A stretch of DNA of 64,000 nt from Ruegeria atlantica (GTDB taxonomy: Bacteria > Pseudomonadota > Alphaproteobacteria > Rhodobacterales > Rhodobacteraceae): assembly GCF_013032005.1 (NCBI RefSeq), contig NZ_WQBE01000003.1, positions 186,001 through 250,000 on the forward strand, written 5' to 3'. Of this stretch, positions 26,210-30,513 are shown piece by piece. The notes below the pieces were generated by a model that saw only the letters and a list, made by a program, of their open reading frames with translations, did not search any database and was not told the DNA's origin. The position numbers were made by a program, and so were the translations under genes. How positions within the stretch are numbered: position 1 is the stretch's first letter; each line of letters opens with the position of its first letter.

Positions 26210-27469
26210 TTAGGCGAATGCGTCCGGCTCAAGCTCTTCCCAGAAATCAAAGATGGCGTTGGCGTTCAGACCAGAGCGCCAACCATGCGCGCGGAAGTGT
26301 TCCCGGTCCAGATCATTGTCGAGCCCGGCCATAAACAACCGTTTGTCCGCGTCCCTCTGTGTTGGGTTTCGCCGCGAAACCAGTTCTTCAACGATAGACA
26401 ACTTCCGCGACCGTTCGGTACGTTCCGCCGCCCGGGCAGCGTAAGCCTGGTCTTCCTGTGCTTTCTCGGCGTCCCGCACTCGCGCTGATTCGATGGCTTC
26501 GGGGCTGGGTTCAGGCGGAGAATCGTTTTCCTGCGGTTGATAGTCGTCGCGCAAGGCGGCGGACAAATATCCAACCGTTGATTTCACATCCCCCTGCCCG
26601 CTTACATAATCCAATTTTTGCTGCACATAGTCTTCACCATGTTCCGCAATCCACTGTCGCGCCAACCGGTCGGACACCCCTTGCTTACGGAGCGTCTTGT
26701 AAACTTGCAGATTGCGGACGCCATCGCTGTCATCGATTTCGAACATCGCCTTCTGTGGATTGCCTTTAATCAGAAACCGGATATCCGTGACCGTGCGGCC
26801 CTTTTTTTGAAACTGTGGCTCTATCAGTATGTCCGAACTTTTGTTCACCTCAGCCACAGCGGGTTTGATGATCTTGGCGTTGAGGTGTTTGAAGCTGCCG
26901 TAATAGTCGCTGCCGTCTACCCCCATGAGTTTGCGGAACACGTCCAGCGCCCACCAACCCGTAGAACCGGTTCTGACGAACCTATAACAATTCTCATACA
27001 GCGCCAGGCCATGCCCAGAGCTAAAGTTCCTTTGGATCTGCACATTGATCAGGGCATAGATTTTCGGATCATAGAGCTTTTGGGCCAGCGCCGGGGAGTA
27101 GGCGTATTCACAGACCCCGTTCTTCAGCTTGGCAAAGCTGAGCAATGAGGACACGCCCCACTCTTGTCTGCCCTGCTCATCCAACATGTCCCATTCCGCG
27201 ACGGTTTCGGCCAGCGCTCGCAAACTCGCCCGCAGCGTATCGAAGTCGTTTGAATTATAGCCGACCATCATCGCAAGCGTCCGCGCGTCGATAGTATGTG
27301 TCTGCGCCGAGGTTAGTGCGTCATACGCGTTTAACAACAGGACATTCGAGAGCTTACGCTGCAAAAGCGTAAGCTTGCCGCTGATGTGAATCGCGGCGAC
27401 GTTTTTCTTGACCGTCTCCCGGCGCAATGCACCAGAGAGCTGATCCATATCCAATTGTGTATCCGGCAT
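26210..27469 (-). CDS. Rep_3-superfamily replication initiator (RepB-type plasmid Rep)
   Basis: 419 residues from the ATG at 27469; an ATG at 27544 would start inside the upstream operator palindrome. Two winged-helix domains typical of Rep_3/pi-type initiators are visible. WH1 has KKNVAAIHISGKLTLLQRK and VLLLNAYDAL (about 20-50). WH2 covers about 135-240 (ALYENCYRFVRTGSTGWWALDVFRKLMG, FKHLNAKIIKPAVAEVN). A long charged C-terminal region follows. As monomers these proteins bind iterons to open the origin; as dimers they repress their own gene through an inverted repeat, and both site types lie upstream. One parS candidate is inside the gene. Confidence 0.88.
   Translation of the reverse strand: MPDTQLDMDQLSGALRRETVKKNVAAIHISGKLTLLQRKLSNVLLLNAYDALTSAQTHTIDARTLAMMVGYNSNDFDTLRASLRALAETVAEWDMLDEQGRQEWGVSSLLSFAKLKNGVCEYAYSPALAQKLYDPKIYALINVQIQRNFSSGHGLALYENCYRFVRTGSTGWWALDVFRKLMGVDGSDYYGSFKHLNAKIIKPAVAEVNKSSDILIEPQFQKKGRTVTDIRFLIKGNPQKAMFEIDDSDGVRNLQVYKTLRKQGVSDRLARQWIAEHGEDYVQQKLDYVSGQGDVKSTVGYLSAALRDDYQPQENDSPPEPSPEAIESARVRDAEKAQEDQAYAARAAERTERSRKLSIVEELVSRRNPTQRDADKRLFMAGLDNDLDREHFRAHGWRSGLNANAIFDFWEELEPDAFA
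26365..26381 (-). repeat. Candidate parS copy 1 (inside rep)
   Basis: On the minus strand this reads GGTTTCGCGGCGAAACC, preceded by CT: a 17-bp near-perfect palindrome around a single central base, identical to the copy inside parB. In rep it encodes part of Leu-Val-Ser-Arg-Arg-Asn; in parB the same bases are read in another frame. The conservation is therefore at DNA level. The arms resemble the GTTTC/GAAAC arms of chromosomal parS. Confidence 0.75.
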
Positions 27470-27530
27470 GATTCTGCCTGGCTGCTCGTTTTGGTATTTC
27501 TTGCACAAAAAGTACCCATGGATCAATTCT

Positions 27531-27578
27531 ATTTGGGTACCCAAATACAGGAAAGAGGGAATCCTGTATCTGGGTACC
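27531..27578. promoter_or_regulatory. Inverted-repeat operator upstream of rep
   Basis: Two copies of CCTGTATYTGGGTACC face each other: one on the minus strand (27551 to 27536), one on the plus strand (27563-27578), 11 bases apart. The left copy overlaps a perfect 16-bp palindrome ATTTGGGTACCCAAAT (27531-27546). It lies about 65-110 bases before the Rep start. Rep_3 initiators typically repress their own promoter through such an inverted repeat related to the iterons. A third copy (CCTGTAGACGGGTACC, 27750-27765) lies in direct orientation beside the iterons. Confidence 0.7.
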
Positions 27579-27598
27579 TGACCTGAAAATCCTCGCAG

Positions 27599-27607
27599 TT
27601 ATCCACA
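27599..27607 (+). promoter_or_regulatory. DnaA box
   Basis: TTATCCACA, an exact match to the strong DnaA-binding consensus, lies between the Rep operator and the iterons, as in many iteron plasmids that need host DnaA for opening. A one-mismatch copy (TGTGGAAAA on the plus strand) lies near 27952. Confidence 0.65.
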
Positions 27608-27759
27608 GAACCGGATCGAGGGTCGCCCAATTAGAGGGTTTTACATGTTCTGCGACCCGGCGAAAAACGAAAATTTAGGGTCTAATCTGGTCGAAATTTC
27701 AGCGTCCTGCGAATCGGCCCCCTTCTTCCTGAAACTCGGCACTCGGCAACCTGTAGACG

Positions 27760-27803
27760 GGTACCTTTGATACCGGAATCTGGTCCCTTTCATACCGTAA
27801 ACA
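27760..27803 (+). repeat. Two 22-bp iteron-like direct repeats
   Basis: GGTACCTTTGATACCG at 27760 and GGTCCCTTTCATACCG at 27782 share 14 of 16 bases with an exact 22-bp period, two turns of the helix. The next period begins with GGT at 27804 but then diverges. The GGTACC core is shared with the Rep operator, so the same protein probably binds both. Confidence 0.6.
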
Positions 27804-27915
27804 GGTGCTGAAGTGAATTTAAGTTGTTGGCTTTAAACATTATTTTTCTCGTAAAGATTCTAAAACATCTAAAATAAATAAACTCTTTGTTGGCTCTGGT
27901 GTTGCCTATTTTACT

Positions 27916-27932
27916 GGTTTCGTGGCGAAACC
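27916..27932 (+). repeat. Candidate parS copy 2 (upstream of parA)
   Basis: GGTTTCGTGGCGAAACC, preceded by CT, differs by one central base from the two coding copies. It stands 52-68 bases before the parA start in non-coding DNA, where ParB binding could also regulate parAB. Centres of the three copies are 1551 and 1572 bases apart. Confidence 0.75.
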
Positions 27933-27983
27933 CACTCAGAGAGGCTTATTCTGTGGAAAACTCTCACTCTGAGGATAGCGTCA

Positions 27984-29435
27984 TTGGAAAATGTTCGCTA
28001 TGTTGGGCAATATACGCCGCTAAGGCGAACATTACCCGAGGCATCGACAGTGAATAAATCTAACCAACCTCCTCTGCCGCCCTATTTGAATCTGGATCCA
28101 GAGCTAGCAGCGCAAAAGTTGCCTGATCCTATCGGAACTTCTCGATTCGCCAAAGCGGCTACATTCTGCGCAAAAGGGCGCGAAGACCTGGCGCGACGTG
28201 GGTATGCTCCGGACGGGGAAAAAAGACTGCGTAGATTTTCCATCTGGGAGATCACCAAATACCTGATCCCGGTTGCACCTGCGCATCTGCGACGTGTGCT
28301 CAAAGCCAATCCCGAATTGCCGCAGGGTGAAGGCGAGGCTGGCTCCAAGTGGTTTTCGCTGGAGGAAGTACTGACCCTCCGACAACACTTTGCAGCCGAG
28401 GGTGTGAGCACCAAGGAATATCTGCCGTACCGACCAGATGGCCTTCCTGCAAAGGTGGTTGCTGTGGCCAATTTCAAAGGGGGTGTAGGTAAGACATCTA
28501 CTGCCGCGCATCTGGCAATGTCAGCTGCGCTGGACGGATATAAAGTATTGGTTATAGATCTGGACAGCCAGGGATCGATGACCTCAATTCTAGGTGGGAG
28601 TGTTGCAGATGAATGGCAAACGGTTTTTCCACTTATAGCCAAAGATTACGCGCGTGCCGTACAAGAGGAAAACCGGGTCCGCAATGCGGCTGGGCAGCCT
28701 GAAATCCCCCTGGATGAAACGCTGCAAGAAGCGCTCAATACCCTGCCCCGCGATGTTATTCAGAAAACGCATTGGCCCAATATCGACCTGATTGGCGCCC
28801 AGTTGAACCTGTATTGGGCCGAGTTTCAGATACCCGTTTGGCGCATGGGTTTGCGCAGTTGGCCGCTTTGGGATGGTTTGACCAACTTTCTGCAGGATGA
28901 AGGAGTGTTGAACGACTACGACATTGTTTTCCTCGATACGCCTCCTGCACTTGGGTACCTAACGATCAACGCGCTGGCTGCAGCTGATATTTTGCTTGTG
29001 CCGTTGGGGGCCTCGTTTCTTGAATTTGATTCAACGGGCCGGTTCTTTGACATGCTCTACACGACTTTTGCCAGCATCGAGGACGGTGAGAACGCGGCGC
29101 AAAGGGCGGCTGGTTTACCCGAGCTCAAGTTTGAATGGGACGTGGTCAGGGCCATAATCACTCGGTTTGATGCCAGCCAGCAAACCGATATGGCAAATGT
29201 GATTCAGGCCTATTTCGGGGACTTCATGAATGCATACCGTCAGGACTATACCGCTCTGGTTGGCCAGGCGGGTGAGCAGGTCAACGGTATCTACGAAGCG
29301 GATTACAGGGACTTCAATCGCGATACGTATGTACGAGGTCGGGAAACATTCGACCGGACCTATGCCGAATTCAAGCAGGTCTTGATCGGCTGCTGGTGGC
29401 GCGACGCTCAGATGGAAGGAAACGCAGATGGCTAA
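27984..29435 (+). CDS. parA: Plasmid partition ATPase ParA (with N-terminal DNA-binding region)
   Basis: 483 residues from a TTG at 27984 with GAGG 9-12 bases upstream; a GTG at 28050 is the alternative. The N-terminal ~150 residues (RFAKAATFCAKGREDLARRGYAPDGEKRLRRFSIWEI) form the helix-turn-helix extension of type Ia ParA proteins, used for autoregulation. The ATPase domain has the deviant Walker A KGGVGKTS at 165-172 and Walker B DIVFLDTPPALG. It moves plasmid copies apart by ATP-dependent nucleoid binding together with ParB. Its end overlaps parB by 8 bases. Confidence 0.92.
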   Translation: MENVRYVGQYTPLRRTLPEASTVNKSNQPPLPPYLNLDPELAAQKLPDPIGTSRFAKAATFCAKGREDLARRGYAPDGEKRLRRFSIWEITKYLIPVAPAHLRRVLKANPELPQGEGEAGSKWFSLEEVLTLRQHFAAEGVSTKEYLPYRPDGLPAKVVAVANFKGGVGKTSTAAHLAMSAALDGYKVLVIDLDSQGSMTSILGGSVADEWQTVFPLIAKDYARAVQEENRVRNAAGQPEIPLDETLQEALNTLPRDVIQKTHWPNIDLIGAQLNLYWAEFQIPVWRMGLRSWPLWDGLTNFLQDEGVLNDYDIVFLDTPPALGYLTINALAAADILLVPLGASFLEFDSTGRFFDMLYTTFASIEDGENAAQRAAGLPELKFEWDVVRAIITRFDASQQTDMANVIQAYFGDFMNAYRQDYTALVGQAGEQVNGIYEADYRDFNRDTYVRGRETFDRTYAEFKQVLIGCWWRDAQMEGNADG

Positions 29436-30513
29436 ACGCAGAAGACTGACCGCTCCGGACACGTCAGAATTGGAACAGCTTGAGGCTGGTTTCGCGGCGA
29501 AACCGTCGATCAGCCCGTTTGAAACCAAGTCATCGACGCCTCCGATTGCACAGGTCGCGGCTGAGGCTGCAACGCTCAACGGCATGGCAGCGGTGACCGA
29601 TCGCCTTGCTCTGGCGCAGGATCAAGGTGATGCAGCTCGATGGCGCGATGCGCAGGATGCCGGACTCGTGGCGGAAATGCTATCGCTGGATCAGATTGAT
29701 GCCGATTTCATTCGTCGCGACCGGATGGTTGAAGATGAAGAAGCCATGGCAGAACTTTTGGAGTCCTTGCGCGTTCACGGGTTGCGCACACCAATTGAGG
29801 TCACGCGTGACGGCGAAGGTTACGGGTTGATTTCTGGCTTCCGACGATTGAATGCCTTCCGGCGCCTGGCCGAGACCGATCCGCGGTTTTCTGAAATCCC
29901 AGCCTTTGTCCGAGAGGCTGGTTCGGGGCAGGGCGCCTATGTCTCAATGGTCGAGGAAAACGAACTTAGGGCAAATCTCAGCCCTTATGAACGTGGACGC
30001 ATTGCGGTTTTAGCCGCGGGACAGGGGGTATTTGCATCGACCGAAGCCGCTGTTGACGTTTTGTTTGCTGCTGCGTCCAAGGCAAAACGATCCAAGGTTC
30101 GTAGTTTTGCGGTGGTACACGAAGCACTTGGTGACTTGTTGCAGCACCCGGTCGCCCTGTCCGAAAAAGCAGGACTGAAACTAGCGGCCGCATTGCGGGA
30201 GGGGGCACAACCCCAATTGCGTCAGGCTTTGGCCGAGGTGGGCGAGCTGGACCAAAAATCGGAATGGGCGTTGCTGGAAGCCGCCCTAAAGACGTCACCT
30301 GCCCCTGTGAAAGACAAGGCGAGGGGAGGGCGTCCGCAACAGGTTCAGCGCCTGGCTCCGGTGGCGTTGACCGGAGGCAGCGACATTCTGGCCGAAGTGT
30401 CCGCAGGCGAATTACGCCTTCGTATTCGTGGAATGGATATCCCTGCCGAAGACGCGCAGAACATCGTTGAACGGTTGGCCGATTACCTGCGTGAGTTTCG
30501 CGGCAAAACATAA
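29428..30513 (+). CDS. parB: Plasmid partition protein ParB
   Basis: 361 residues. A disordered N-terminal tail contains the ParA-interaction region. The ParB/sulfiredoxin-fold CTPase domain covers about 85-180, with LSLDQIDADFIRRDRM, the CTP-binding GFRR motif at 137-140 and the ENELRANLSPYERGRI box. A helix-turn-helix region (about 190-260) follows, then a C-terminal dimerisation part. It binds parS and slides along DNA as a CTP-dependent clamp. The best parS candidates are the three GGTTTCG-N-GGCGAAACC repeats around this module, one of which is in its own 5' coding region. Confidence 0.9.
   Translation: MAKRRRLTAPDTSELEQLEAGFAAKPSISPFETKSSTPPIAQVAAEAATLNGMAAVTDRLALAQDQGDAARWRDAQDAGLVAEMLSLDQIDADFIRRDRMVEDEEAMAELLESLRVHGLRTPIEVTRDGEGYGLISGFRRLNAFRRLAETDPRFSEIPAFVREAGSGQGAYVSMVEENELRANLSPYERGRIAVLAAGQGVFASTEAAVDVLFAAASKAKRSKVRSFAVVHEALGDLLQHPVALSEKAGLKLAAALREGAQPQLRQALAEVGELDQKSEWALLEAALKTSPAPVKDKARGGRPQQVQRLAPVALTGGSDILAEVSAGELRLRIRGMDIPAEDAQNIVERLADYLREFRGKT
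29488..29504 (+). repeat. Candidate parS copy 3 (inside parB)
   Basis: GGTTTCGCGGCGAAACC, preceded by CT, is identical to the rep copy but read in a different frame (Gly-Phe-Ala-Ala-Lys-Pro). It lies in the poorly conserved N-terminal tail of ParB, where a DNA site can be tolerated. A degraded version, AGTTTCGCGGCAAAACA, closes parB at 30494-30510. Confidence 0.75.

Follow-up and report, generated by a model that had tools for sequence, protein, structure and literature searches.

Noc binding sites are scattered over the chromosome, and the operator of KorB is an odd-length palindrome. Consensus sequences are given in the part of the literature consulted here for the Noc site NBS (TATTTCCCGGGAAATA) and for chromosomal parS (TGTTTCACGTGAAACA, with four bases between the arms; PMC7383237). 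For the repABC replicons, the sections of the cited papers that we used describe a parS consensus GTTNNCNGCNGNNAAC and palindromic sites that lie near or inside genes, often in several copies (PMC9040568). The sequence of these sites is group-specific (PMC5613091, PMC3910554), and differences between the palindromes have been linked to compatibility (PMC9040568, PMC5613091). The Phaeobacter inhibens plasmid pPGA1_78 (NC_018287) is typed as RepB-I in the portion available of PMC4148982. RepB- and RepA-type plasmids have also been described in PMC9025767 and PMC3832669, the covered parts of which contain no site of the kind treated here. Likewise, for replicons of the RepB or RepA type, no parS was found among the matches listed in open-access text or by exact sequence, while a description in a subscription journal is possible.

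We analysed a window of 64,000 nucleotides from Ruegeria atlantica (G000:C23:186001-250000), which belongs to a contig of 354,850 bases in a draft genome of 4,399,747 bases (4.40 Mb, 29 contigs). This contig carries a rep-parAB module at 26210-30513 of the window, in which rep is divergent from parA-parB (Table 1). Rep matched PF01051 (E=8.9e-19) and PF21205 (E=4.5e-15), while the product of parA, the gene upstream of parB, matched AAA_31 (E=3.8e-30). The parA start is predicted from the annotated parA in a related module (L036). In the plasmid collection, the closest match was a replicon of 389 kb from Ruegeria sp. B32 (88% identity in rep, 77% in ParB), and rep is 77% identical to that of pPGA1_78. 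With a Rep_3 initiator, parAB and homology to RepB-I plasmids, the module belongs to the RepB-type (Rep_3) replicons of Rhodobacterales. The interval between rep and parA contains a DnaA box (TTATCCACA, 27599-27607) as well as inverted repeats at 27536-27578 and 27745-27766 and is probably the origin.

Table 1 Features of the rep-parAB module (positions in the window).
Feature	Position	Strand	Remarks
rep, Rep_3 initiator	26210..27469	-	PF01051 and PF21205; predicted start at 27469, open frame back to 27544
parS-like site 1	26365..26381	-	3' part of rep, codons VSRRN; perfect palindrome
Putative origin of replication	27470..27915		DnaA box, repeats, GANTC sites; predicted function
parS-like site 2	27916..27932	+	Non-coding, between putative origin and parA; 7/8 pairs match
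parA, Walker-type partition ATPase	28050..29435	+	Predicted start; longer open frame from 27984
parB, ParB/Noc-like DNA-binding protein	29428..30513	+	8-base overlap with parA
parS-like site 3	29488..29504	+	Inside parB from codon 21, GFAAKP; perfect palindrome
Decayed fourth site	30494..30510	+	3' end of parB; 3 mismatches from pattern

Five GANTC (CcrM-type) sites occur within about 390 bases (27470 to 27860) near the DnaA box; an uneven distribution of GANTC sites is mentioned for a repABC region in the sections used of PMC9040568. A second Rep_3 initiator is encoded in the same genome (G000:C2:35862-36284, E=1.2e-13, open frame of 291 aa), and our ParB search of the genomes reported no ParB of the window's family on that contig.

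A preliminary description of the window had proposed three 19-bp near-palindromes around rep and parAB as a candidate parS cluster. All three 17-mers were recovered where it had placed them, and their centre-to-centre distances were 1551 and 1572 bases, as computed there. The symmetric unit comprises 17 rather than 19 bp, with 0, 1 and 0 mismatched pairs of 8 in sites 1 to 3 and two in the degraded copy. The dinucleotide CT does precede every copy (on the minus strand for the rep copy). It lies outside the symmetry, however, and is not part of the motif, because relatives can have A, E, T, D or K ahead of GF in the parB copy. Sites 1 and 3, the coding copies, have a one-base centre and, with site 1 taken on the minus strand, are identical 17-mers read in different frames of rep and parB.

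The pattern GGTTTCGNNGCGAAACC was found exactly at three places in the window and in none of 100 shuffles. These are also its only three places in the entire genome, clustered within 3.1 kb around the genes rep, parA and parB. Allowing up to two mismatches, the genome-wide search returned nine forward and eight reverse matches, including the three sites, whereas the reversed pattern, used as a control, gave 14 and 14. No further copy above chance was thus present in the genome, in line with the earlier observation by eye that there was no other intact copy, and the scattering of the 17-bp site that would have spoken against a parS cluster was not seen in this genome.

To place these sites in a wider context, ParB relatives were collected from 584 plasmid records and from 113 of the 198 genomes of the family. 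The modules taken comprised 9 of the 584 plasmid records and 100 stretches from genomes (49 stretches, then 60). Of these, 39 including the window's were RepB-type: 35 had a rep match, and four without a rep match within their stretch (L042, L050, L057 and L083) were grouped by a ParB tree from which two ParB reads under 280 aa had been dropped. Counting sites of the form xGTTTCG(3-4)CGAAACx, we found 117 palindromes in the 39 modules and none when these 364,686 bases were shuffled 20 times. Five slots defined relative to the parB start accounted for 111 of the 117. The slot at parB codon 21 was filled in 32/39 modules, the non-coding one ahead of parA, about 1510 bases before parB, in 25 of the 38 modules covering it, and the one in the 3' part of rep in 18 of 36, being empty in the other 18. 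A slot inside parA (about -692) was filled in 17/39 modules, as was one at the end of parB (about +1040 to +1160), with the window's own copy counted as unfilled. The degraded copy reported earlier lies in this last slot, where the relative L045 carries, at the identical offset of +1066, a copy with one mismatch. Among the 35 modules with rep, 18 had three sites, nine had four and five had two, with one module each for five, one and none. The slots are not universal: L069 lacks any site, and L068 carries a single one. In the modules L058 and L063, the copy on the rep side follows the rep stop codon, and therefore the location within the gene is not itself essential. The comparison with homologous rep-parAB modules that had been suggested as a check showed sites recurring at the same places.

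That two of the three copies are in coding DNA would speak for recurrence by chance or through conserved peptides. Chance is contradicted by the absence of the motif from the shuffles. With regard to peptides, 15 modules share [LA]VSRRNPT under the rep site, where the codons GTT, TCG, CGA and AAC were used in 15/15 modules and CGG in 14/15, while the adjoining Pro and Thr were each encoded by four codons. This was the most uniform 5-codon window of the 108 scored. Full identity was seen for just 10 of the 195 invariant degenerate rep codons, four of them under site 1. The 32 sites in the parB slot show three readings, namely as 17 bp in frame 0 with a GFAAKP-like peptide (19 sites), as 17 bp in frame 1 with an EFRRET-like peptide (seven) and as 18 bp in frame 0 with a GFARET-like peptide (six). 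The parA slot was read as VSPRN or VSSRN in 17/17 modules. Because the rep codons are frozen and the parB copy is read three ways, it is, judging from the sequences, the DNA rather than the protein that is selected under the coding copies, as the preliminary description had held. The frozen synonymous codons and the three readings also contradict peptide conservation as the cause, and the non-coding slot is filled in most modules covering it. We consider an origin by chance or coding constraint vanishingly improbable.

A further survey started from the DNA. The 19-mer CTGGTTTCGYGGCGAAACC was scanned against one genome per species for 84,980 species, without ParB as a guide. This revealed 52 copies in 51 stretches, 47 of which hold rep, parA or parB of the window's module family (tblastn E up to 1e-10). 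Forty-three copies were located in rep, three in parB and two in non-coding DNA beside these genes. The four stretches outside modules came from Cryobacterium, Magnetovibrio, Salinivibrio and a Rhizobiales MAG, which agrees with the 2.3-5.8 places expected by chance at 45-65% GC. The 19-mer is thus nearly confined to such modules, which favours the parS cluster. Within the 198 genomes of the family, the exact 17-bp pattern was present in 23 (reversed control, 5/198). By hand count, 43 of its 52 distinct places in these genomes were on the contig of a family module; of the nine others, seven were unpaired at the centre and two were paired (G196:C39, G087:C230).

In the RepB-type modules, the palindromes have one or two central bases, giving 17- or 18-bp sites, and mostly G/C as the outer pair. 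The same arms, with T/A at the outer position and mostly two central bases, recur in many other modules, which have a related ParB and no Rep_3 match. Six of these T-flank modules were viewed: a PF10134-like RepA-type initiator was recognised by eye in L075, L082, L102 and L117 and confirmed with Pfam in L073, while L105 had no initiator in its stretch; the remaining ones were assumed to be alike. These modules bear on the question of whether the sites could bind Rep, for origin function or handcuffing, rather than ParB. The sites do flank the putative origin, and one is inside rep. However, modules with an initiator of a different Pfam family (PF10134, Pfam-checked in L073) and a related ParB keep the arms, with T/A instead of G/C outside. 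The motif thus follows ParB and not Rep, and parA and parB themselves hold several of the slots. Binding by Rep is therefore rejected as highly improbable.

ParB of the window has 361 residues and a ParB_N domain (PF02195, E=1.6e-7). Using phmmer, structures of ParB, Spo0J and Noc were matched (best E=6.9e-10), Noc over residues 98-269. For a structural model computed from 65 sequences (mean pLDDT 87.5), the best Foldseek matches were Noc (7nfu, E=1.2e-7), nucleotide-bound ParB of Myxococcus (7bnk, 7bnr) and KorB (8qa8, 8qa9); Spo0J was also matched. The TM-scores by query length of 0.18-0.36 for the ParB/Noc/KorB matches are modest, probably owing to the domain arrangement. G137, R139, R140, E176, E177, N178, E179 and R181 were invariant in 72 aligned ParB sequences. 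The GxRR and ENxxR regions to which they belong are CTP-binding motifs, so that, at the sequence level, ParB has the CTP-binding motifs of a class Ia ParABS system. A Walker-type ParA gene upstream of parB, a ParB_N domain with a Noc/Spo0J-like fold, and palindromic sites that adjoin parAB and are specific to the replicon agree with this class.

Together, the uniqueness in the genome, the conserved slots and the confinement of the 19-mer to modules support the candidate parS cluster. We estimate a probability of roughly 0.93 that the palindromes are parS sites, which would load ParB for ParA-driven partition in a class Ia ParABS system of a Rep_3 (RepB-type) replicon. Because of the ParB fold and the invariant CTP-motif residues, clamp loading at parS is the expected mechanism. 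According to fold and motifs, ParB dimers would bind the 17-bp palindrome and load as sliding clamps. The nucleoprotein complexes would, by analogy with the family, follow ParA-ATP on the nucleoid and thereby segregate the replicon copies. The three intact sites bracket the putative origin and parAB, and the non-coding site 2, 117 bases before the predicted parA start, may also repress parAB.

The position of site 2 also fits a different explanation, in which the palindromes are operators for repression of rep and parAB by ParB or a different regulator, partition using other DNA. Among the fold matches, the ParB relative KorB is annotated as a transcriptional repressor, and a regulatory role has been proposed for some repABC parS sites in the part used of PMC9040568. 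Against this, operators would be poorly placed in the slots close to the 3' end of rep, within parA, at codon 21 of parB and at its end, and operator and partition roles are not exclusive. We regard operators as a very unlikely account and retain parS sites as the preferred reading.

The sites of one module tend to agree in length. After near-duplicates (L039, L042, L046) and modules with fewer than two sites were dropped, a single length was found for all sites in 33 of 34 RepB-type modules, compared to a mean of 18.2 and a largest value of 26 in 2000 shuffles. One length per module thus exceeds shuffling, and shared descent contributes. On a tree of ParB without its N-terminal site region, again omitting L039, L042 and L046, the fewest changes between 17 and 18 bp were five, with or without the mixed module L062; this is a count on one tree with 12/33 inner branches open and not a bound over all trees, and the state of L068 is based on a single site. 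The parB copy varies in length and yet keeps the gene in frame by gaining or giving up a base at its edge. No residue in the ParB alignment cleanly separated 17- from 18-bp modules; among G-flank modules, the best spacing-linked residue was 247 (K versus R, frequency difference 0.81). Lys or Arg at 218 tracks outer G or T, but this is confounded with descent. Coexisting modules (for example in G005, G073, G092 and G187) pair a G-flank with a T-flank module and therefore have no bearing on spacing. Two RepB-type modules in one genome were not encountered among the modules taken.

L062 (G193) and L107 (G035) contain both 17- and 18-bp sites and may be intermediates of a spacing switch. Whether half-site spacing in the window's ParB family is an evolvable specificity switch is, in our judgement, evenly balanced. 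If so, spacing switches would create new plasmid compatibility groups, with L062 as an intermediate. The recurrent spacing change common to a module's sites is the part that specialists may find surprising. Such a natural series of spacings could reveal how the ParB clamp tolerates half-sites one base pair further apart and whether this step renders plasmids compatible.

An 18-bp relative of the site, GTTTCGCNNGCGAAAC, was observed 10-23 times per genome in seven genomes (G035, G105, G092, G133, G149, G015 and G075; for the last three among the matches listed), with a reversed control of 0. In G035 (G035:C1, L145-L158), 17 of 19 places were spread over a 3.79-Mb contig (about 0.01 expected at an assumed 66% GC), and in G105 (L159-L164), 20 of 23 were on contigs other than that of the module. 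The outer base is often that of a resident module, with G on both sides at 15/23 places in G105 and at just 2/14 in G149 (among the matches listed). This pattern recalls Noc-type scattering or could reflect a plasmid ParB acting on the chromosome.

Twelve of the 14 chromosomal copies examined in G035 (L146-L156, L158) are embedded in an element that is conserved over about 95 bases. It has an A/T-rich start, and the palindrome is preceded by approximately GATCAAGGGCTTCCAGAGATT and followed by approximately GAATAGGTTAAC. The element is partly common to G092 (L173-L175, L178), and the +1220 copy of L107 has similar near flanks. Rfam yielded 0 matches on 11 loci with scattered 18-bp sites.

Read as parS, the site gives the RepB-type replicons found in marine Rhodobacterales a candidate centromere sequence, and RepA-type modules a related motif. 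In addition, sites in coding DNA at constant slots represent a clean case of DNA-level selection atop protein-coding sequence.

Compared to chromosomal parS, the arms GTTTC/GAAAC are shared, as had been noted, and ParB is of the same superfamily. The resemblance does not extend to the spacing: the window's site has 17 bp and five bases between the arms (six in some relatives) instead of four. It is hence not a chromosomal 16-bp parS, and the canonical word TGTTTCACGTGAAACA occurs separately, in two exact copies on contig C12 of the same genome. The repABC replicons likewise have several partition sites near the rep/par genes, some of them inside ORFs. Sequence, gene order and initiator differ, however: the motif is not GTTNNCNGCNGNNAAC, there is no repABC operon, and the Rep_3 initiator is divergent from parAB, which excludes membership of this group.

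A second ParB module of the same genome, L080 (G000:C6:10568-21515), carries three CTTACCCACGGGTAAG-type (CTTACCC) palindromes; its ParB falls in an outlying clade of the ParB tree, and the module is probably repABC. By their sequences, three distinct centromere words, namely the 17-bp site, TGTTTCACGTGAAACA and the CTTACCC palindromes, probably occur in one cell.

Noc, ParB and KorB provide the nearest solved folds, and KorB shares the odd-length palindrome, whereas the Noc consensus TATTTCCCGGGAAATA differs and, within its genome, the 17-bp site occurs in the module alone. The RepB-I plasmid pPGA1_78 has a ParB that is 60% and a ParA that is 87% identical, with sites before parA and in parB and an additional one inside parA. 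Its rep-side position is outside the stretch covered (L042), while the related P. piscinae module L041 has the rep-side copy. Class Ia ParABS systems and palindromic parS sites near or inside genes are thus already known, and the novel, testable part is the switch in half-site spacing.
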